57,198 bases of DNA, taken from the NCBI RefSeq assembly GCF_028693135.1, contig NZ_JAQUVZ010000021.1, forward strand, positions 1 through 57,198, read 5' to 3'. The number at the start of each line of letters is the position of its first letter. The stretch's first letter is position 1. The notes under the pieces are model-generated. The model had not been told where the DNA came from. It ran no database searches and saw only the letters and a program-made list of their open reading frames with translations. Source of the stretch: Methanosarcina sp. Its GTDB lineage: Archaea; Halobacteriota; Methanosarcinia; Methanosarcinales; Methanosarcinaceae. Both the position numbers and the translations under genes were made by a program. Below, in pieces: positions 185-37,006 of this stretch.

Positions 185-3100
185 TCACATCTCTTTCATC
201 TTCATTTTTTGAAGCTGTTTAATGCATGCGAGAAGGTTTTCCCTGGTGAACATACCTTTGTGCATGATGCTGGAAGCTTTCTTATCCAATTCTTTTATGT
301 CATACGGGTCCAGCTCCTTTGCAGTACAAATAATTATGGGAATATCGATGGTATCCGGCCTGTTCTTAAGCGCTTTTATGACATCAAAACCACTGATATC
401 AGGCATCATGAGGTCTAGAATAATAACTTCCGGTTGTTCTTTGAATGCAATATCTATGGCCTCTTTTCCTCCATAGGCCTTTAACACACAGAACTCCTTT
501 TCATCTAACATCGCAGCTACCAGTTCCACTGCACTTTTTTCGTCATCCACCACCAGCACATTGAGAGACGATTTTGCCACCTTTTCTTTGATATTCTCCA
601 GTGTAGAAAGTAATGTATCCTTTTGAATAGGTTTGATGAAGTGTTCCACAGCTCCCCATATGACACCCAGCTCCCTTTCATCCAGCATGGAAGTGATTAT
701 TACTGGAATATCATGGGTTTGTTCCTTCAGTTTCAAATGCTTCAGGACGTCCCAGCCGTTCATTCCAGGCATCATAATGTCCAGAGTAATTGCAAATGGT
801 TTCATCTTATTGGCAAGTTCAAGGGCCTCTTTTCCATTGGGAACAGATACCACACGGTAACCTTCCTGCGTCAGGGTGACCTCCAGCAACTCCCTTGAAG
901 CATCGTCGTCTTCCACCACAAGTATCAGTGGCTCATCCCTGCTGCTATTCAGTGGTTCGATTATTTGCGGGATATGGATAATGGGTTCAGGGACATTTTC
1001 AATATCCTCTGTTGGGACATTTTCAATATCCTCCGTTATCACTTCTGCAGTGCCTTCCTTATTTAAGCCGGCTATTAAAGGGATCTCAAAAGTAAAAGCT
1101 GTGCCTTTCCCAACTTCACTTTCAAACCATATCTTCCCCTTATGCAGCTCTACAAAACTTTTAACGAGGGAAAGCCCAAGCCCTGTCCCTTCGTACATGC
1201 GGTTTGTAGCAGAATCGAGCTGTGTGAATGGCTTGAATAGCTTGTGCCTGTTCTCTTCAGCTATCCCTATACCCGTATCTCTGACGGTGAACTGTGCCAT
1301 TTCTCCGCACATGTTTGAGGAGATGGTCATCTTTCCACCCGCGGGTGTGAACTTAATGGCATTGCTTGCAAGATTGAAAAGAATCTGTTTGAACCTTATT
1401 TTATCAGCATTTATATTTACAAGTTTCTCGTCTATGCAGAACTCCATTTTAAGCCCTTTTTTCTCAATAAGGGGTGATGTCAGCTGTTTTACTTCAGTAA
1501 ACGTTTCTTTAACAGCAAAGGTCTCATAATTCAACTCCATCTTACCCGCTTCGATCTTGGATATGTCGAGTATGTTGTTTATGAGAGAAAGCAGATGTTT
1601 CCCACTCGTGGATATGTTGCCCAGGAACTTTTTCTGCTGCTGAGACAGCTCTCCAACATTGCCTGCAATCATCAGGTCAGAGAAACCTATGACGGAATTC
1701 AATGGCGTCCGCAGTTCATGACTCATAGTTGCAAGGAATTCGCTTTTGGCACGATTTGCAGTCTCTGCTGTAATCCTGGCCTGGATCAAGCTGTCCTCTG
1801 CTTGCTTTATTTTGGTCAGGTCCACAAAACTCTCTACTAAGTATTTTTTACCTGAAATTGTTATAGGCACCACGGATTTCAGGATGGGAACCCTGTTTCC
1901 ATCCTTATTGAGCAACACACGTTCAGAGCGATCAACTTTAAATCCTGAATCAAGGATAGGGCATTTTCCTTCATCTGCAGGACAGATGAAATGATGGCAG
2001 GACTTACCAATGATTTTCTCCTGGGGGAGGCCGATCATTTCCTCAGCAATGGGGTTTACATCAGCGATTGTGGATGTTTCAGCATCTATGAGAACAACAC
2101 CGCTAATGATGCTTGAAAGTACGGTCTCCAGCCTCTGCCTGTTTTCCTCTTCAACCCTTTGAAGTTTCACGCTATCCGTAACATCATTTGTACAGTAAAC
2201 AGTACCAATCACCTTTCCATTGCGGTGTAATGGTCCGGTGCACCAGTCATAGATAACCTCATTTTTAAGGTACACTGTTACTCGATCTCTATCTGAGGCG
2301 TTTTGTAGGTTCTTAATCTCTGCAGTGCCTCCTCTGCCATCACCTGCCTGTGCAATTACATGCTCGATAACTTTTGCCTCACTGTTCTGTGAGATCAAAT
2401 CTGCGCTTATGTCCCACATTGCAATGAATTTATTGTTCATGATGCACCTATCCATACCAACAATCATTATGCCTGCATCCATGGAATCAAGGCTGGATTC
2501 AATTATTTTGAGGGTCTCAAGGACATGGGACTCAAGGGCTTTCTTATTTTCGTCCAGGGTTTTGAGCATGTAGTTTATGTTCCCTGCAAGATCGTAAATT
2601 TCGTCCTTACCTTCCATGTTTATGCGGGATGAAAGTGATCCTTTTTTAGTGATCTCGGTCAGGTTAGTGTTCAGCAAGGATATGCGAGATAAAACCGATT
2701 TTTCAAGTGAAAAAGAAAGGACAAGTTCAAATACCACTCCCATGCCTAGAATTGCAACAAGCATGTATTTTATGGCAGACCGACCATGTTGATAGATATC
2801 CCTCGGCATCTCAACGTCCAGGAACAATACAGGCTCTCCATTTATATCGTTCAGTACAGTTGTTCCTATAACCGAAGCCTCACTCACATAATTTATATTA
2901 AGGCTATTATCATCTTTTGGAGTCGATGCTGCTGCACTGGCATATGATGCTGCACGCTCTTGATTGAAGACTTCTGCACTCAGGGAGAGACTAGTTGTTC
3001 CGGAAAGCTTTTTTATCAATTCAGCATCTATAAACTTTGCGAAGATGAGGGTGCCTGCTATGGGTCCCTCTCCAGAACTCTGCGTGATAGGATGAGAAGC

Positions 3101-3592
3101 AATCAGTAATGGCCCTTCAGGAGAATTGATGATTCCAGATACCTGGCTGTCGGGTGCAGTGTGAGAGAAAATACGTTCATTTGCAGCGATGTAATCAAGC
3201 ACCGTGGTCGAGATGTTTGTGCGTTCAGTAGTACCCGAGTCTACTGCCACAGCATAGTAGAGTTTGTCTGTGGAGTCATAAAATAATACCATACTGGCAT
3301 CAAGATTGGATATTATCTCAGGGGAAAGGGTCTCGTCGACGTAACCTTCATCTTGCCCCTGGACAAAAAGAGCAGTCTTGTCCCATAAAGCGTAATCATA
3401 GGTAGTCATATTCAATACCGCTAACTTAGCATCCATTGCAGCTGTTGCCCTTCCCACATTCCTGGATACTTCGTCCTTTTCCAGGTGTTCAAAGCTGTTT
3501 CCTATTATCTGCTCGCTAGCCACCATCAGGAATACAAATAGAAAAATGAAGGTTATTCCGAGAATTACCAGTGTCTTATCGCGTATCTTCAT
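185..3592 (-). CDS. hybrid sensor histidine kinase (CHASE4-HAMP-PAS-PAS-HisKA-HATPase-REC-REC)
   Basis: A membrane sensor kinase of 1135 residues. Seen in order: TM1 (about 8-26), an extracellular CHASE4-like sensor with the DYALWD motif (about 66-71), TM2 (about 274-294), HAMP (about 295-348), two PAS domains (about 360-480 and 485-605), HisKA with phospho-acceptor His625 in [10 protein letters not shown], a HATPase_c domain (about 725-845), and two receiver domains with Asp938 (LDIMMPG) and Asp1060 (LDLMMPD). The second PAS carries a cysteine motif, [15 protein letters not shown], nearly identical to one in the kinase at 35201. The signal should pass from His625 to the C-terminal receivers and perhaps to the single receiver encoded 3 bases upstream. 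A Glu/Pro-rich linker with a short repeat (TEDIENVP twice) precedes REC1. The ligand is unknown; domain calls are confident. Confidence 0.95.
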
Positions 3593-3595
3593 GGA

Positions 3596-3970
3596 TTACG
3601 CCTTCCCATTGCCAAAAAAAGCATTCAGCTGATCCATGAACTGAAACACATCTATAGGTTTGGAAATATACCCGATGCAGCCTGCATCAATGAAACGCTG
3701 TTCGTCGCCTACCAACGCTTGTGCAGTTAAAGCCACAACCCCTATTTGCTGCGATGCTGGATTCTCCTTGATATATTTTAAGACTTCCAGCCCCCCCATT
3801 CCGGGCAACTGGATGTCCAGTAATACGAGGTCAAAGAGAGAGTTCTTGATCATGTCCAGTGCTTCTAACCCATCTACAGCTTGTGTGACTTCAATTCCAT
3901 TTGATTCCAGAAGACATGTCACCAATTCCAGATTCATAGGATTATCTTCTACTACCAGTATGCTTGCCAT
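3596..3970 (-). CDS. single-domain response regulator (CheY/DivK-like)
   Basis: A stand-alone receiver of 124 residues: acidic pocket ED (residues 8-9), phospho-acceptor Asp52 in LLDIQLPGMGG, Thr in ALTAQA, and Lys in SKPID. There is no output domain. A perfect AGGAGG lies just upstream of the ATG (about 3974-3980), so the start is secure and expression is probably strong. Its stop is 3 bases before the ATG of the hybrid kinase, so the two form an operon and probably a phosphorelay pair. It is paralogous to the receiver at 34512 (shared LLDIQLP, ALTA and SKPIDIQ/VF), which also precedes a kinase. The output is presumably protein-protein interaction. Confidence 0.94.
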   Translation of the reverse strand: MASILVVEDNPMNLELVTCLLESNGIEVTQAVDGLEALDMIKNSLFDLVLLDIQLPGMGGLEVLKYIKENPASQQIGVVALTAQALVGDEQRFIDAGCIGYISKPIDVFQFMDQLNAFFGNGKA

Positions 3971-4426
3971 GGAACCTCCTAAAAATATATAGTTATTCTA
4001 ATTATTATTCTTAACTTCCCCCATATTTAGGAAAGAAGCATTTCTAACGTCTGAATTTCCAATCTCAATAGCCCCTAATGTAGGTACTTCAGTTTGTTTT
4101 TCGCATTCCCGAATAGGGATACATCATTTTGGTGAACGTGAATTGTAGAATGCCTCTTGATTCTGAAAAGGAGTTTCACATGCAGTACTTATACCTTAAT
4201 TCGTCTGACTTGAGAATTTATATTATAAGTAAGTAATAATTTGTGATTTATTTACATTGGCCATCGGTGAAGGAATTTTCTTGTATGTATGCTATCGATT
4301 TTAGAACAAAAATCATTCCAAAGCTTCAAGCATCAATACTAAAATCGATTTCCTGTTCCAATTTCGCATCAATATCTGTTTTTGAGAAATGTTATCGAAA
4401 TAGAGCAATTTATCATGATTCCTTAC
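3971..4426. other. intergenic; transposase N-terminus relic and AT-rich DNA
   Basis: Upstream of the response regulator is AT-rich promoter-like DNA. From about 4243 to 4320 (+) a short open stretch reads HWPSVKEFSCMYAIDF, related to the fragments near 17.1 kb (minus) and 18.1 kb. It looks like the N-terminus of a transposase family that has lost the rest of its sequence. No functional gene is visible here. Confidence 0.5.
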
Positions 4427-4429
4427 TTA

Positions 4430-4558
4430 GAGCCTGTCCGAAAAGTGGTTACCTACTGTAACTTTTACAATGCAATATGAAAAACCGGGACGGATACTCT
4501 GACATTATAGACATATTGTAACTTTTCAACATGCATTACTGACTTTTCGGATAGGCTC
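4430..4558. mobile_element. 129-bp MITE with IS5-type terminal inverted repeats
   Basis: Terminal inverted repeats GAGCCTGTCCGAAAAGT (4430-4446) and ACTTTTCGGATAGGCTC (4542-4558) differ at one position. They are flanked on both sides by TTA (4427-4429 and 4559-4561), a probable 3-bp target duplication. Internal DNA has no ORF. GAGCCTGT-type ends and TNA target duplications are typical of IS5-family (IS1031-like) elements, so this is a non-autonomous derivative. A single end of the same family lies at 56531-56547. Confidence 0.75.
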
Positions 4559-4561
4559 TTA

Positions 4562-4852
4562 GGCGAAGATGAATGGATTTATTTAGAATTCTTAAATATA
4601 TATTATTTATTTATACACAATTGAAATGTATATTTAGAAAACAATAGATTTATTATTGTTTAGATAAAACTCTTTTAAGACTGGCATAATGTTATACGAA
4701 TGAAAACGTAAGTATTCGTTACACTGGAAACTTAGGGATGATAAAAATATAACTTCAAATTTTCATTTTGGGAATTGCTCTATAGTTCCATTTCCCAAAT
4801 AATCATTCTTGGCAACAAAAATCCTTGATACTATACTGAATCATTCCTTAAT
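4562..4852. other. AT-rich intergenic region
   Basis: There is no gene. A small inverted repeat (AAACAATA / TATTGTTT, about 4641-4661) could form a hairpin downstream of the minus-strand methyltransferase, but nothing else stands out. Confidence 0.35.
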
Positions 4853-5506
4853 TTATCGTGAAGAACCTGGTCTCCAGGCTGAGATCACAGCAAAACTCCC
4901 TGTTCCGGACCCTTTTTGTGGAAGTTCTATAAGCTCTATTTTCTCAGGCTGCTTGAAAAGGGTCTGGCAGATCTTAATTTTTTCGAATCCGAGCTCTATA
5001 AGCCAGCCTGACACTTCTGTAGTTGAGAGAAATTTCGCCTCTGAAGAAAACCTGCCTTCCTTTTTCCCTGATTCATAAAAATCTCCATGAAGGCTGTTTC
5101 TGTCAAGCATACCGATTACAATTTGCCCGCCTGGCTTAAGGACTCCTGCAGCCTCACGGAGTGCCTGTAAAGGCTCCTTGAAAAGAGAAAGTGCAGCAAC
5201 AATCAAAATAAGGTCAAAACCCCGTTTTTTGAAGGGCAGGGACTCGGCAACTCCGAGCACCATTTGAACGCCCTTTTTTTTTGCGATTTTTGCCATAGCC
5301 GTTGAAGGTTCAAGCCCGAACCCGATTCCAAGAGGAGATGAAAACCTCCCGGTCCCAGCTCCGATTTCCAGAACCTTCAATTTTTCCAGGTTTTCGGGGA
5401 GGAATAATTTGAGGGCGAGAAGCTCGGATTCATATGCAGGTTTATATCTGTCATACCAGGCATCGTATTCTTCTGCGTATTTTTCAAAGGCTTCCCAGGG
5501 CTTTAT
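4853..5506 (-). CDS. class I SAM-dependent methyltransferase, apparent AUA start
   Basis: A Rossmann-fold methyltransferase of about 217 residues. Motif I is VLEIGAGTGRFS, then GLEPS (acidic ribose-binding end of beta 2), an LPFKK motif region, a DLILIVAALSLF motif-4-like stretch, and L-K-P-G-G-Q in the post-strand loop. The first conventional start in this frame is a TTG at 5380, which would begin only two residues before motif I. The frame continues upstream with a convincing N-terminus (KPWEAFEKYAEEYDAWYDRY) to an ATA codon at 5506-5504, exactly 7 bases after a perfect AAGGAGG. I therefore place the start at ATA, either a genuine AUA start or a recent ATG mutation. The substrate is unknown. 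The next minus-strand gene upstream is a surface protein; no operon is evident. Confidence 0.82.
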   Translation of the reverse strand: MKPWEAFEKYAEEYDAWYDRYKPAYESELLALKLFLPENLEKLKVLEIGAGTGRFSSPLGIGFGLEPSTAMAKIAKKKGVQMVLGVAESLPFKKRGFDLILIVAALSLFKEPLQALREAAGVLKPGGQIVIGMLDRNSLHGDFYESGKKEGRFSSEAKFLSTTEVSGWLIELGFEKIKICQTLFKQPEKIELIELPQKGSGTGSFAVISAWRPGSSR

Positions 5507-8918: not shown

Positions 8919-9190
8919 TTTACTTGTGACAGGCAGAAAGTCCCTTGCTTTAGCTTGCGGGATGAATGGCGTAAACTTCTCTCATTTTCGCTATCTCTAA
9001 CCTTGAAATACTTTCCAGTCCCATATTACGTACTGAATTCCTAAGCGATAACCAAGCCAAGGAAACCAGAAATATTTGTATTAAATAATTTTTCACCTCT
9101 GGGACAGAGGGTAGAGCCTGTGGACCTGTGAACGGTAGTTAGAGGTATGAAGCAGGAAGCCTCACAGCTTTAGCATGGGGTAGTTCACTT
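8919..9190 (+). mobile_element. IS200/IS605-derived non-autonomous element (copy 1)
   Basis: A 272-bp unit beginning TTTACTTGTGACAGGC and ending with a hairpin-rich tail, GCTTTAGC then GGGGTAGTTCAC, the usual look of the right end of TnpB-carrying IS200/IS605 elements. An almost identical copy in the opposite orientation lies at 34885-35157. Both copies begin at TTTAC, consistent with insertion 3' of a short fixed target and no target duplication. No tnpA or tnpB ORF is present, although one frame before the right end ends GQRVEPVDL-stop and may be a residue of a tnpB C-terminus (inference). Confidence 0.75.
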
Positions 9191-9293
9191 CAGGAAAGGA
9201 CTTTAAAATTCAAAAGCTTAAGGTTAAAATTCAAAAGCTTAAGATCTTATGAAAAAGAGTAAAGGGAAAAATAAAAAAGAAAAATAAAAAAAT

Positions 9294-16440: not shown

Positions 16441-16966
16441 TTCCATCAGTCAACTGACTACAATTGTAGAATCAGTTAACTCCCCGCCACTGAAGTGACG
16501 AGACTCCTGCTTATTTCATCTTGAAATAGAGGCCTCTATAGTTACCAGGAGTAATCCCAATCTTAGAATATTTTTTGAAGCATTAAATCACGATTGATAC
16601 ATAATCTGCAGAAGGAGCAATTACTAAAAACGAAGGAGTTGCTGGGTGTATCCCTGTGTCCCGCTGAAATTGTCGGGGATTAGCTCATCCTCGCCCTATA
16701 AAGAGAGAATATATTTGGGATCAACATTTACCATTAATCCCACTTACGGATCATAAGGAAGGGCCGGGGGACTTGCGGGGTTTGCTCCGAGGTATGAACC
16801 CGGAAGTTCCGAGTAGCCAGGAGTAGGTCACATTGACTGCAATCAATCCAAAATCAATCAAAAACATCAAAAATTAGACTAAGTGAAGAATCATGATAAA
16901 TTGCATCCATCCCCACAAAAGAGGTTTAATGCCTACAAAAGAGGTTTAATAACCTGCAAAAGGGGT
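16441..16966. other. intergenic with IS200/IS605-like end fragments
   Basis: At about 16469-16512, GTTAACTCCCCGCC ... GACTCCTGCTT lines up with the hairpin end of the 34885 element. On the opposite strand at about 16790-16830 (TTCATACCTCGGAGC) a second, diverged end occurs. A near-duplicate AGAGGTTTAAT unit is repeated at 16920-16950. These are scraps of TnpB-type elements; no ORF is intact. Confidence 0.45.
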
Positions 16967-34511: not shown

Positions 34512-34886
34512 ATGTATTTGCCCATGAAGAGCGTACTTGTCGTGGAAGATGATCCTTTAATTATGGAACTTGTCAGGACCCTATTGGTTTCATTTGGATA
34601 CGACCCAATAGAAGCTGTTGATGGTGCCATGGCTATTGAACTCAGTAAAAAAAATAGCTTAAACATTATATTATTAGATATACAGTTGCCCCGGATTGAT
34701 GGAACTGAAGTACTAAAAATATTGAAAGGAGATCCTGTCACACGTGAGATCCCGGTTATTGCCCTTACAGCCCATGCAATGCGCGGCGATGAGGAAAAGT
34801 TTCTGAAAGCAGGGTTTAGTGGTTATGTTTCCAAGCCCATCGACATTCAGAAATTCAAATCACTCATAATAGAGCTCATCGTATGA
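34512..34886 (+). CDS. single-domain response regulator
   Basis: A 124-residue receiver with an acidic pocket EDD (12-14), phospho-acceptor Asp56 in LLDIQLPRIDG, Thr in ALTAHA, and Lys in SKPIDIQ. There is no output domain. The second ATG (34524, MKSVLVVEDD) is the likelier start by comparison with its paralogue at 3596; neither ATG has a clear Shine-Dalgarno. The stop codon overlaps the edge of the IS200/IS605-derived element, which separates it from the kinase at 35201. In the paralogous locus the receiver and kinase are only 3 bases apart, so this pair was probably one operon before the insertion. Confidence 0.92.
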   Translation: MYLPMKSVLVVEDDPLIMELVRTLLVSFGYDPIEAVDGAMAIELSKKNSLNIILLDIQLPRIDGTEVLKILKGDPVTREIPVIALTAHAMRGDEEKFLKAGFSGYVSKPIDIQKFKSLIIELIV

Positions 34887-35157
34887 AGTGAACTACCCCC
34901 CGCTAAAGCTGTGAGGCTTCCTGCTTCATACCTCGAACTACCGTTCACAAGTCCACAGGCTCTACCCTCTGTCCCAGAGGTGAAAATTATTTAATACAAA
35001 TATTTCTGGTTTCCTTGGCTTGGTTATTGCTTAGGAATTCAGTACGTAATATGGGACTGGAAAGTATTTCAAGGTTAGAAGATAGCGAAAATGAGAGAAG
35101 TTTACGCCATTCATCCCGCAAGCTAAAGCAAGGGGCTTTATGCCTGTCACAAGTAAA
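34885..35157 (-). mobile_element. IS200/IS605-derived non-autonomous element (copy 2)
   Basis: Nearly identical to 8919-9190 over its whole length but inverted. On the plus strand it begins GTGAACTACCCCCCGCTAAA and ends TGTCACAAGTAAA. In LE-to-RE orientation it follows TTTAC, like copy 1. It lies exactly between the response regulator stop and the histidine kinase, and creates a spurious in-frame N-terminal extension of the kinase frame to 35015. Confidence 0.75.
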
Positions 35158-35200: not shown

Positions 35201-37006
35201 ATGACAGATTTTTTCAGAAATACGTTTGGGAAAAAATCGGATGATTTGTTAATTATTTTAGTCGTGGGCCTTTTCTTCACATCATTTGCCTCCTACTTTG
35301 GTATTTTTGAATCCATCATTTTATTTGTTGAAGAATACAGTAACCGTGAAATTGGTGGGATGCTTACTCTTTTGATTTATCTTACCTTTGCTTTCGGAAT
35401 TTTCTCCCTGCGGCGCTGGATGGAACTTGAAAATGCTCTGGTGCTTCAGGAGCAGGCAGAAGAGAACATCAGAGAGAAAGATAAAAGATACAGGGCTCTG
35501 TTTGAAGAGTCAAATGATGTAATCGCTATTCTTAATGAGGAAAAAGTCCTGGACCTTAATAAAAAAGGCCGCATTGCTCTCGGGCTGGGCAACGGGAACC
35601 TTGTAGACGTCTCATTGGGGACACTGGTGCCCAAAGAATATCTACTGACAGTCCGGGAAGCCCTGAAAGCCACTCTTGCAAATGGGACTTCCCGTTTTGA
35701 AATGAAATTTCAGAAACAGAACGGGGCTATTATTGATGTGGAGGTTAATTCCTCTTCCTTGAGCCTTGAGGACAGAGAAGTCCAGTTTGTTGTTAGAGAT
35801 ATAACTTCACGTAAAAGAGCCGAAAAAATGGAGCATGAAAGCCAGGAGAGGTTGAATAAAATAATTGACAATGCCCTTTGCGGGATTTTACTGGTAGAAG
35901 TTTCCACACACGAAATTGTGGAAGTAAATCCGGCAGCTGAAGAAATGATAGGGCTTCCGAAAGATGAACTCGTAGGAAATGTCTGTCATCAATTCGTCTG
36001 TCCTGCTGAGAAAAATAAGTGTCCGATAACTGACCTGGGGGAGACTGTCGACAGGTCTGAGAGATTAATGCTCAGAAATGGAAGAGGTGAACATTTATCT
36101 GTCCTGAAAAGTGTGGTCCCTGTAAAAATAGGAGGGAAAGAATACCTTATAGAGAGCTTCATCGACCTATCCGAACGCAAAAAAGCCGAACAGGAACTAT
36201 TGCAGGCAAAGCTTGCTGCTGAAAGTGCCAACCGTGCCAAGAGCGAGTTCCTGACGACTATGAGCCATGAACTGCGTACTCCTCTTTCAGCAATCATCGG
36301 ATTTTCGGATGTGATGCTCGGCGGAATGAGCGGGGAATTCAATGAACAGAATAAAAAGTTTCTCAACAACATAGCTAACAGTGGAAAACATCTCCTCGCC
36401 CTCATAAATAACATTCTTGACCTTTCCAAAATTGAAGCCGGCAAGATGGAACTGGATATGGAGATGTTTTCAGTTTCCGAAGCATTTAGCTACACCAGGG
36501 CTGTAACCTCAGATCTTGCCCTGAAAAAGGACATCACAATAAAATATGATCTGGTGCCTGAGCTTTCAATCTATGCTGACAGGATACGTTTTAAGCAGGT
36601 CATCTACAACCTTATGAGCAATGCCATAAAATTTACACCAAAAGGTGGATCAGTAGAGGTTTTGGCCGCAAAAGCAGGAGATTCTGTCAGGGTAAGTATT
36701 TCGGATACGGGGATAGGAATTTCAGAAAAAGACCAGAAACTCCTTTTCCAGCCCTTCATGCAGGTCGATTCCAGTATCAGCCGTCAGTATGAGGGCACAG
36801 GGCTTGGGCTGGCTCTGGTCCGGAAGTTCGTAGAACTCCACGGGGGCAAGGTCTGGGTTGAGAGCGAAACTGGAAAAGGCTCGACTTTTACATTTGAATT
36901 ACCTTTGAAATACAGAAAAATTTCCTACACATGCATAAATGGTTCAAGCATTTCCAAAAAAATAGTCCCGCTTACAGTCGAAAAGGAAGAAAAGGAAGAA
37001 ACTTAA
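35201..37006 (+). CDS. membrane histidine kinase (2 TM-PAS-PAS-HisKA-HATPase)
   Basis: A 601-residue kinase. Two TM segments (about 16-36 and 50-68) with almost no extracellular loop, a PAS domain (about 95-205), a second PAS (about 215-330) with cysteines CHQFVCPAEKNKCPI, HisKA with His356 in [10 protein letters not shown], and HATPase_c (about 455-570, with NAIKFTPKGG, DTGIGIS and GTGLGLAL). There is no receiver, so the partner is probably the receiver at 34512. The frame is open to 35015, but that part lies in the inserted element; the ATG at 35201 follows a weak GGGGA. The Cys-PAS, HisKA and ATPase domains are close to those of the kinase at 185, so the two loci are paralogous. The extreme C-terminus (EKEEKEET) runs into a tandem array. 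Confidence 0.93.
   Translation: MTDFFRNTFGKKSDDLLIILVVGLFFTSFASYFGIFESIILFVEEYSNREIGGMLTLLIYLTFAFGIFSLRRWMELENALVLQEQAEENIREKDKRYRALFEESNDVIAILNEEKVLDLNKKGRIALGLGNGNLVDVSLGTLVPKEYLLTVREALKATLANGTSRFEMKFQKQNGAIIDVEVNSSSLSLEDREVQFVVRDITSRKRAEKMEHESQERLNKIIDNALCGILLVEVSTHEIVEVNPAAEEMIGLPKDELVGNVCHQFVCPAEKNKCPITDLGETVDRSERLMLRNGRGEHLSVLKSVVPVKIGGKEYLIESFIDLSERKKAEQELLQAKLAAESANRAKSEFLTTMSHELRTPLSAIIGFSDVMLGGMSGEFNEQNKKFLNNIANSGKHLLALINNILDLSKIEAGKMELDMEMFSVSEAFSYTRAVTSDLALKKDITIKYDLVPELSIYADRIRFKQVIYNLMSNAIKFTPKGGSVEVLAAKAGDSVRVSISDTGIGISEKDQKLLFQPFMQVDSSISRQYEGTGLGLALVRKFVELHGGKVWVESETGKGSTFTFELPLKYRKISYTCINGSSISKKIVPLTVEKEEKEET

Follow-up and report, generated by a model that had tools for sequence, protein, structure and literature searches.

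The closest known kind of element to the one examined here is the PATEs of haloarchaea. In the accessible part of the report on Haloquadratum walsbyi (PMC3119063), PATEs are short, transposase-free elements without terminal inverted repeats or target duplication, their ends are related to those of IS605-type transposons, they carry nested insertions of small elements, and the tnpA copies of the genome are mostly broken; the paper predates omega-RNA, which is not described in that part of it. A 271-nt PATE-like element of Halanaerobium hydrogeniformans, an ends-only IS605 derivative with an entire right end, appears in the available excerpt of its description as a single copy with 58 nt of tnpB left, and neither a multi-copy family nor a second block is described in that excerpt (PMC7290912). 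As for the protein partner, TnpB of ISDra2 works with an RNA (omega-RNA or reRNA) from the right end of the transposon, has its guide supplied by the 3' flank and cleaves the donor joint beside a motif equal to the insertion target, according to the accessible sections of that study (PMC8612924), and the accessible text of a preprint describes donor-joint cutting by TnpB as acting as a gene drive in plasmids (PMC11870625).

The short elements of Methanosarcina sp. described here share with PATEs a size too small for a transposase, the lack of tnpA and tnpB, of target duplication and of terminal repeats, ends related to IS605, nested insertions and a genome in which tnpA is found broken; in size and in their entire right end they also resemble the H. 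hydrogeniformans element. Unlike the H. walsbyi PATEs as described, they retain a TnpB scaffold with covarying pairs, and a second conserved internal block is common to several of their families. The insertion is of the ordinary PATE-like kind, and what is new is the conserved two-block RNA anatomy, which is unusual and testable and which suggests a non-autonomous element giving its own guide to TnpB in trans. As in ISDra2, the predicted RNA lies at the right end, its guide would come from the 3' flank and the predicted target motif is that of the insertion site, but the scaffold sits here in an element without tnpB, so that any TnpB must act in trans. A literature search, mostly outside subscription journals, found no description of short omega-RNA elements in Methanosarcina.

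The transposase-free element is real and occurs twice in the window, that is, the whole stretch of 57,198 nucleotides analysed. As the first-pass annotation had claimed, the two copies are nearly identical and inverted relative to each other (97% identity over 271 bp), both follow TTTAC, and both share the right terminus GGGGTAGTTCAC. Once the target pentamer is excluded, the element proper measures 265 bp in both copies, too short to encode the Y1 transposase that an autonomous IS200/IS605 element has of its own and that is absent here. Read from left to right end on the minus strand, copy 1 is TTTAC/TTGTGACAGGC...GGGGGGTAGTTCAC/TTCATACG, and reading TTGTGACAGGC against the reverse-complemented right end GTGAACTACCC revealed no terminal inverted repeats. 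The features of the window are the following:

34888-35152, minus strand: short IS200/IS605-derived element, copy 1, with its left end at 35152 and its right end at 34888
35153-35157, minus strand: target pentamer TTTAC of copy 1, from the sequence, the predicted TnpB TAM
35098-35152, minus strand: left end of copy 1, subtype A (TTGTGACAGGC...), from genome matches and comparison of ends
35006-35042, minus strand: internal conserved block of copy 1 (CTGAATTCC..GCRATAACCAAGC..GGAAACCAG), a possible structured 5' domain
34916-34986, minus strand: predicted omega-RNA (reRNA) scaffold core of copy 1, covariance-model match, 90.9 bits, E 1.7e-22
34888-34915, minus strand: terminal right-end hairpin region of copy 1 with a cleavage-site-like GTAGTTCAC, the hairpin being weakened in this copy
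34868-34887, minus strand: predicted 20-nt omega-RNA guide of copy 1, from its position 3' of the scaffold, by the rule in the accessible sections of Karvelis 2021 (PMC8612924)
8924-9188, plus strand: short element, copy 2, 265 bp, by sequence comparison
8919-8923, plus strand: target TTTAC of copy 2, from the sequence
9090-9160, plus strand: predicted omega-RNA core of copy 2, covariance model, 85.0 bits, E 6.7e-21
9189-9208, plus strand: predicted guide of copy 2, from its position
16737-16807, plus strand: third, degenerate omega-RNA core, of another element, 54.6 bits, E 9.4e-13, with a P2 helix of CCGG/CCGG type
34512-34886, plus strand: receiver-only response regulator of 124 aa (Pfam), its stop codon intact and adjoining the insertion
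35201-37006, plus strand: PAS-PAS-HisKA-HATPase sensor kinase (Pfam), its native ATG intact

In this genome 314 nt separate the receiver stop codon from the ATG of the kinase, as against 50-51 nt in the two orthologous empty sites that were measured. The empty site, receiver then kinase without the element, was found in G007 and G006, and also in Methanosarcina sp. DH2, 2.H.T.1A.6 and the MAG UBA10923, whose kinase side is N beyond ~40 nt. In the count of four empty-site genomes, DH2 is taken as one with G007, to which its stretch around the joint is identical, and 2.H.T.1A.6 and UBA10923, which may also be among the genomes compared under other labels, are taken once each. Comparison with these four related genomes places the joint precisely, with zero bases duplicated and no larger or different element in the relatives, and these empty sites without target duplication show a clean IS200/IS605-type insertion. 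In KYL-1 and one Methanosarcinaceae MAG the element is absent and the intergenic DNA has diverged. Since TTCAC or TTAAC stands at the four empty sites in place of the TTTAC found here, a one-base difference in the target itself, the TAM is not directly visible in the relatives; among the left flanks of the 20 copies listed, TTTAC occurs 15 times, CTTAC three times, and ATTAC and TTTGC once each. The 3-base spacing between receiver and kinase genes that the first-pass annotation had cited holds for the paralogous pair (185-3592 and 3596-3970) but not as the ancestral state, the orthologous gap being the 50-51 nt given above.

An insertion of 265 bp exactly between receiver and kinase could also be read as an adaptive switch uncoupling the response regulator from its kinase. 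This we hold to be very improbable, given that both genes, the kinase ATG at 35201 and its 48-nt leader are intact, and that other copies are found at unrelated sites. The predicted guide of copy 1 runs antisense to the 3' end of the receiver gene, across its last codons; any omega-RNA of copy 1 would be antisense to the receiver-kinase operon, and its effect on the operon is probably small.

The genome assembly (G000; 4.22 Mb in 89 contigs) contains far more relatives of the element than expected by chance: BLAST returned 39 matches, down to E 2.8e-4, and the family's internal block is present at 14 loci, two of them interrupted by other inserts. These 14 loci correspond to 15 locus records, L013 and L015 overlapping, and tnpA is absent at all 15 records checked, while tblastn found no tnpB homologue within ~1.5 kb on each side of them. 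Three left-end subtypes can be distinguished, A (TTGTGACAGGC), B (GAAAGTCGAAGG) and C (ATGTAATAGCC), and one copy (L008) combines a B left end with an A right hairpin, from which it follows that ends have been exchanged between subfamilies. Several copies carry interruptions or partial duplications. The internal region is strongly matched in three of the 30 genus genomes searched, at 14 loci in G000, 10 in G041 and two in G042, with one further, more divergent relative in G041 (L166), while many other genomes of the genus match the right or left end only. Exact-pattern scans of genome-contig and viral-contig collections gave no match.

Several copies are of interest in themselves. The short element at C56:108473-108953 of G000 (L013/L015) is interrupted by ~207 bp whose ends equal those of a 629-bp IS200-like tnpA-only element (on C36, and in G041 copies), and this insert is an internally deleted derivative of that tnpA-only element. 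The copies L164 (G041) and L167 (G042) have a common right flank and are apparently one insertion retained at an orthologous site; L164 also bears several tandem repeats within scaffold helices P1/P2. Additionally, an inverted-repeat element of 113-128 bp with AGGCTGTCCGACAATT ends has ~24 near-full copies (L007, L175-L194; on C77, C41, C31, C58 and others). Its site is a TAAA/TTTA-like tetranucleotide in 21/21 copies examined, nearly all of them flanked by hairpin arms resembling IS200/IS605 ends, and it seems to target these hairpin loops, much as SMR-A of Haloquadratum attacks PATEs.

The derivation from IS200/IS605 that the first-pass annotation proposed is supported by longer relatives in G000, where related tnpA and tnpB genes do exist. 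Subtype C and the A-type right hairpin have their counterparts in a tnpA-tnpB element on C47 (~3310-5092), and those of the subtype B ends are found in ~1.4-kb elements with tnpB only, on C43 and C54; different short subfamilies match different longer elements. The C47 tnpA is the only one in the assembly with matching ends, and it reads ...VTLDVVKQ*IEEQK where an intact, 78% identical homologue in G021 reads ...VTLDVVKKYIEEQK, a TAA standing in place of the catalytic tyrosine, a position that we assign from IS608. The idea that the element could be mobilised in trans today is weakened by this broken sole match, with the limit that an 89-contig assembly could miss an intact copy. Two other tnpA genes, IS200-like and located on C36 and C77, are not obvious helpers, their ends being different. 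In the case of tnpB, the six genes read (C47, C43, C54, C3, C56 and C62) are open and have D/E/D motifs GxDxG, ETLN and HDRDxNAA, and downstream of each lies a scaffold of the same type. In L119 and L120 (C54, C43) and in L170 and L172 of G041, a 429-aa tnpB frame continues across the scaffold as far as a stop codon in the terminal hairpin, and coding sequence and omega-RNA scaffold therefore overlap.

The right half of the short element is, by its sequence, a TnpB omega-RNA scaffold that adjoins the flanking DNA, which would serve as the guide. The evidence comes from an alignment (A3) of 23 right ends outside the 14-copy family, of which eight have tnpB directly upstream (seven checked, one by coordinates) and at least six are tnpB-less short elements, among them the divergent family relative L166. 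Its 18-pair structure consists of a hairpin P1 and a helix P2, CCTG/CAGG, enclosing P3 and P4. Paired cells amount to 86.2% and doubly changed cells to 75, where shuffles give 68.8% and 25.5, and both sides have changed in 12 of the 18 pairs; the observed paired, cell and covariation values were reached by 0/500 shuffles, the pair count by 11/500 and the pair types by 4/500, and in slid versions of the alignment the paired share falls to 33-52%. The covariance model built from A3 (R1) matches both window copies (34916-34986 and 9090-9160) and, more weakly, 16737-16807, which bears out the suggestion that the reRNA could be retained. In related genomes, among the matches listed, R1 falls many times between a few and ~50 nt behind PF07282 tnpB domains, a repeated position that identifies it as a tnpB-linked RNA; a structured right-end scaffold common to tnpB-linked right ends is what characterises TnpB omega-RNAs. 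The third match of the window lies in 16470-16832, on the plus strand, beside a right-end-like palindrome on the opposite strand near 16470-16520, and one or two other IS605-type elements have left their remains in this stretch.

Within the short family the same structure is kept: in 19 short elements, 98.2% of 342 pair cells are paired, with too few changes to show compensation (31/500 shuffles were as high), and RNAalifold on the 19 found a double change in 1/45 pairs, again with too little variation. Folding the element as one unit gave results no better than those of shuffled sequences (z -0.18 and -1.52), so that the case for structure rests on covariation and not on energy. PATEs have near-terminal palindromes at both ends; here a long hairpin forms at the right end of subtype B, and the DNA hairpins at the left and right ends of the window copy are no better than in shuffled sequences. 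HEARO (RF02033), the IscB-type omega-RNA, also occurs with IS605-like ends but is a different RNA family; it has no match within the window, and its matches above the gathering score (L120:358-563 and 2995-3203, L202:1749-1954, L205:2018-2222, L201:1600-1847) lie near tnpB-type elements, at least one of them between IS605-like ends.

Across G000, R1 has 45 matches at E <= 0.001, compared with 24 tnpB domain matches. Comparison of the two lists places 10 scaffolds immediately behind a tnpB of the same orientation, 14 in the short family and 21 elsewhere. When 20 of these 21 (2.5-2.6 kb each) and the window's third match were searched by tblastn with 21 tnpB proteins, tnpB remnants were found in L210 and L213, L203 contained a tnpB of a different type, and the remaining loci gave no match; overall, 33/45 scaffolds have no nearby matching tnpB detectable by tblastn.

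The element had been described as reduced to its ends, and this did not hold: ~110 nt of internal sequence, including the conserved block, are missing from tnpB elements. This second block is conserved across several families of short elements and was not found in tnpB elements; a related block (CTGAAATCC..GCGATAACCAGGC..GGATA) occurs in other short families of G000 and in L166, 45 to ~170 nt before the scaffold. When 19 short elements are aligned (seven of subtype A/C and 12 of subtype B, with interrupted, partial and internally duplicated copies excluded), the two groups share on average 93.7% identity over the scaffold core and 93.1% over the internal block, compared with 82.0% over the remainder of the internal region, 60.8% over a variable stretch, 50.2% over the terminal right hairpin and 48.8% over the spacer that separates core and block. 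Conservation of core and block where spacer and terminal hairpin have diverged is our best evidence, at the level of sequence, that the RNA rather than the ends alone is kept. This pattern could also partly reflect recombination or gene conversion among copies, which counts against our preferred explanation. The structure of the internal block is only suggestive: RNAalifold on the automatic alignment found five pairs, two with double changes, and a hand alignment, three of whose 19 rows are uncertain, is 88% paired against 78% when shuffled, with 19 doubly changed cells against 5.3 (91% and 10 cells without those rows). A coding origin of the internal region was rejected, five frames (stops as X) giving no Pfam match up to E 10 and translated comparison with tnpB loci matching essentially the ends alone, except for the L123 self-region.

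These identities bear on whether the element is simply a dead remnant, a plain PATE mobile in the past, whose scaffold has no RNA function and would survive only through the youth of the copies and the need for the right end in cis during transposition. The broken matching tnpA, the weak terminal hairpins of the window copy and the several interrupted or partly duplicated copies all fit such a history; what it accommodates poorly is that the terminal hairpin, which a Y1 transposase would be expected to need, is down to 50% between subfamilies while the core stands at 94% and the spacer at 49%, and we judge it possible but on balance unlikely. Less likely still, the conserved blocks would act as DNA or as a cis RNA, for example in transcription termination or as a repressor RNA titrating TnpB, and not as working guides. 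Circular omega-RNAs of archaea have been proposed to act as decoys, in the accessible text of one study (PMC12558985), and the internal block is conserved with no known role and no Rfam match in the short-element stretches searched; on the other hand, the whole scaffold fold is kept up to the flank junction, which a decoy would not need.

The reading that we favour, with some reserve, is that of a non-autonomous, PATE-like IS200/IS605 derivative which carries the scaffold and would supply its own guide to TnpB in trans. It retains from the first-pass interpretation the derivation, the insertion after TTTAC and the scaffold, and abandons the reduction to the ends, with mobilisation in trans today left as a weakened part. 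Also against it stand the stop in the sole tnpA with matching ends, the scarcity of changes within the short family, the weak DNA hairpins of the window copy and the TTCAC or TTAAC of the empty sites. On the RNA side the short element appears complete, with scaffold and flank, and we infer the transcription, TnpB loading and cutting. A Y1 transposase acting in trans would have moved the element as single-stranded DNA; the right end, when transcribed, would yield an omega-RNA with the 3' flank as guide; a TnpB made elsewhere would load this RNA and cut TTTAC plus flank, that is, the empty allele or donor joint; and repair from an element-bearing copy would restore the insertion. Through such cutting and repair the element could be kept, or spread among chromosome copies, without encoding a protein.

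A bolder and rather doubtful extension is that the short elements are trans-acting guide-RNA parasites of a few hundred bases with a conserved two-domain RNA, made up of a 5' block and the TnpB scaffold, hiring TnpB from unrelated elements to cut chromosomes that lack them. If so, they would be protein-free gene drives in polyploid methanogens and would outnumber the tnpB elements that they need, 33/45 scaffolds having no detectable tnpB and 10/45 lying directly behind one. If the RNA works in trans, many loci that lack its gene could programme one TnpB, and natural TnpB guides per genome would be several times what tnpB counts suggest. The persistence of transposase-free PATEs would also be explained, and archaeal TnpBs could be tried with small natural scaffolds that may include an additional 5' domain. 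As intact TnpBs occur in G000 together with matching scaffolds and recorded target sites, the idea can be tested directly.
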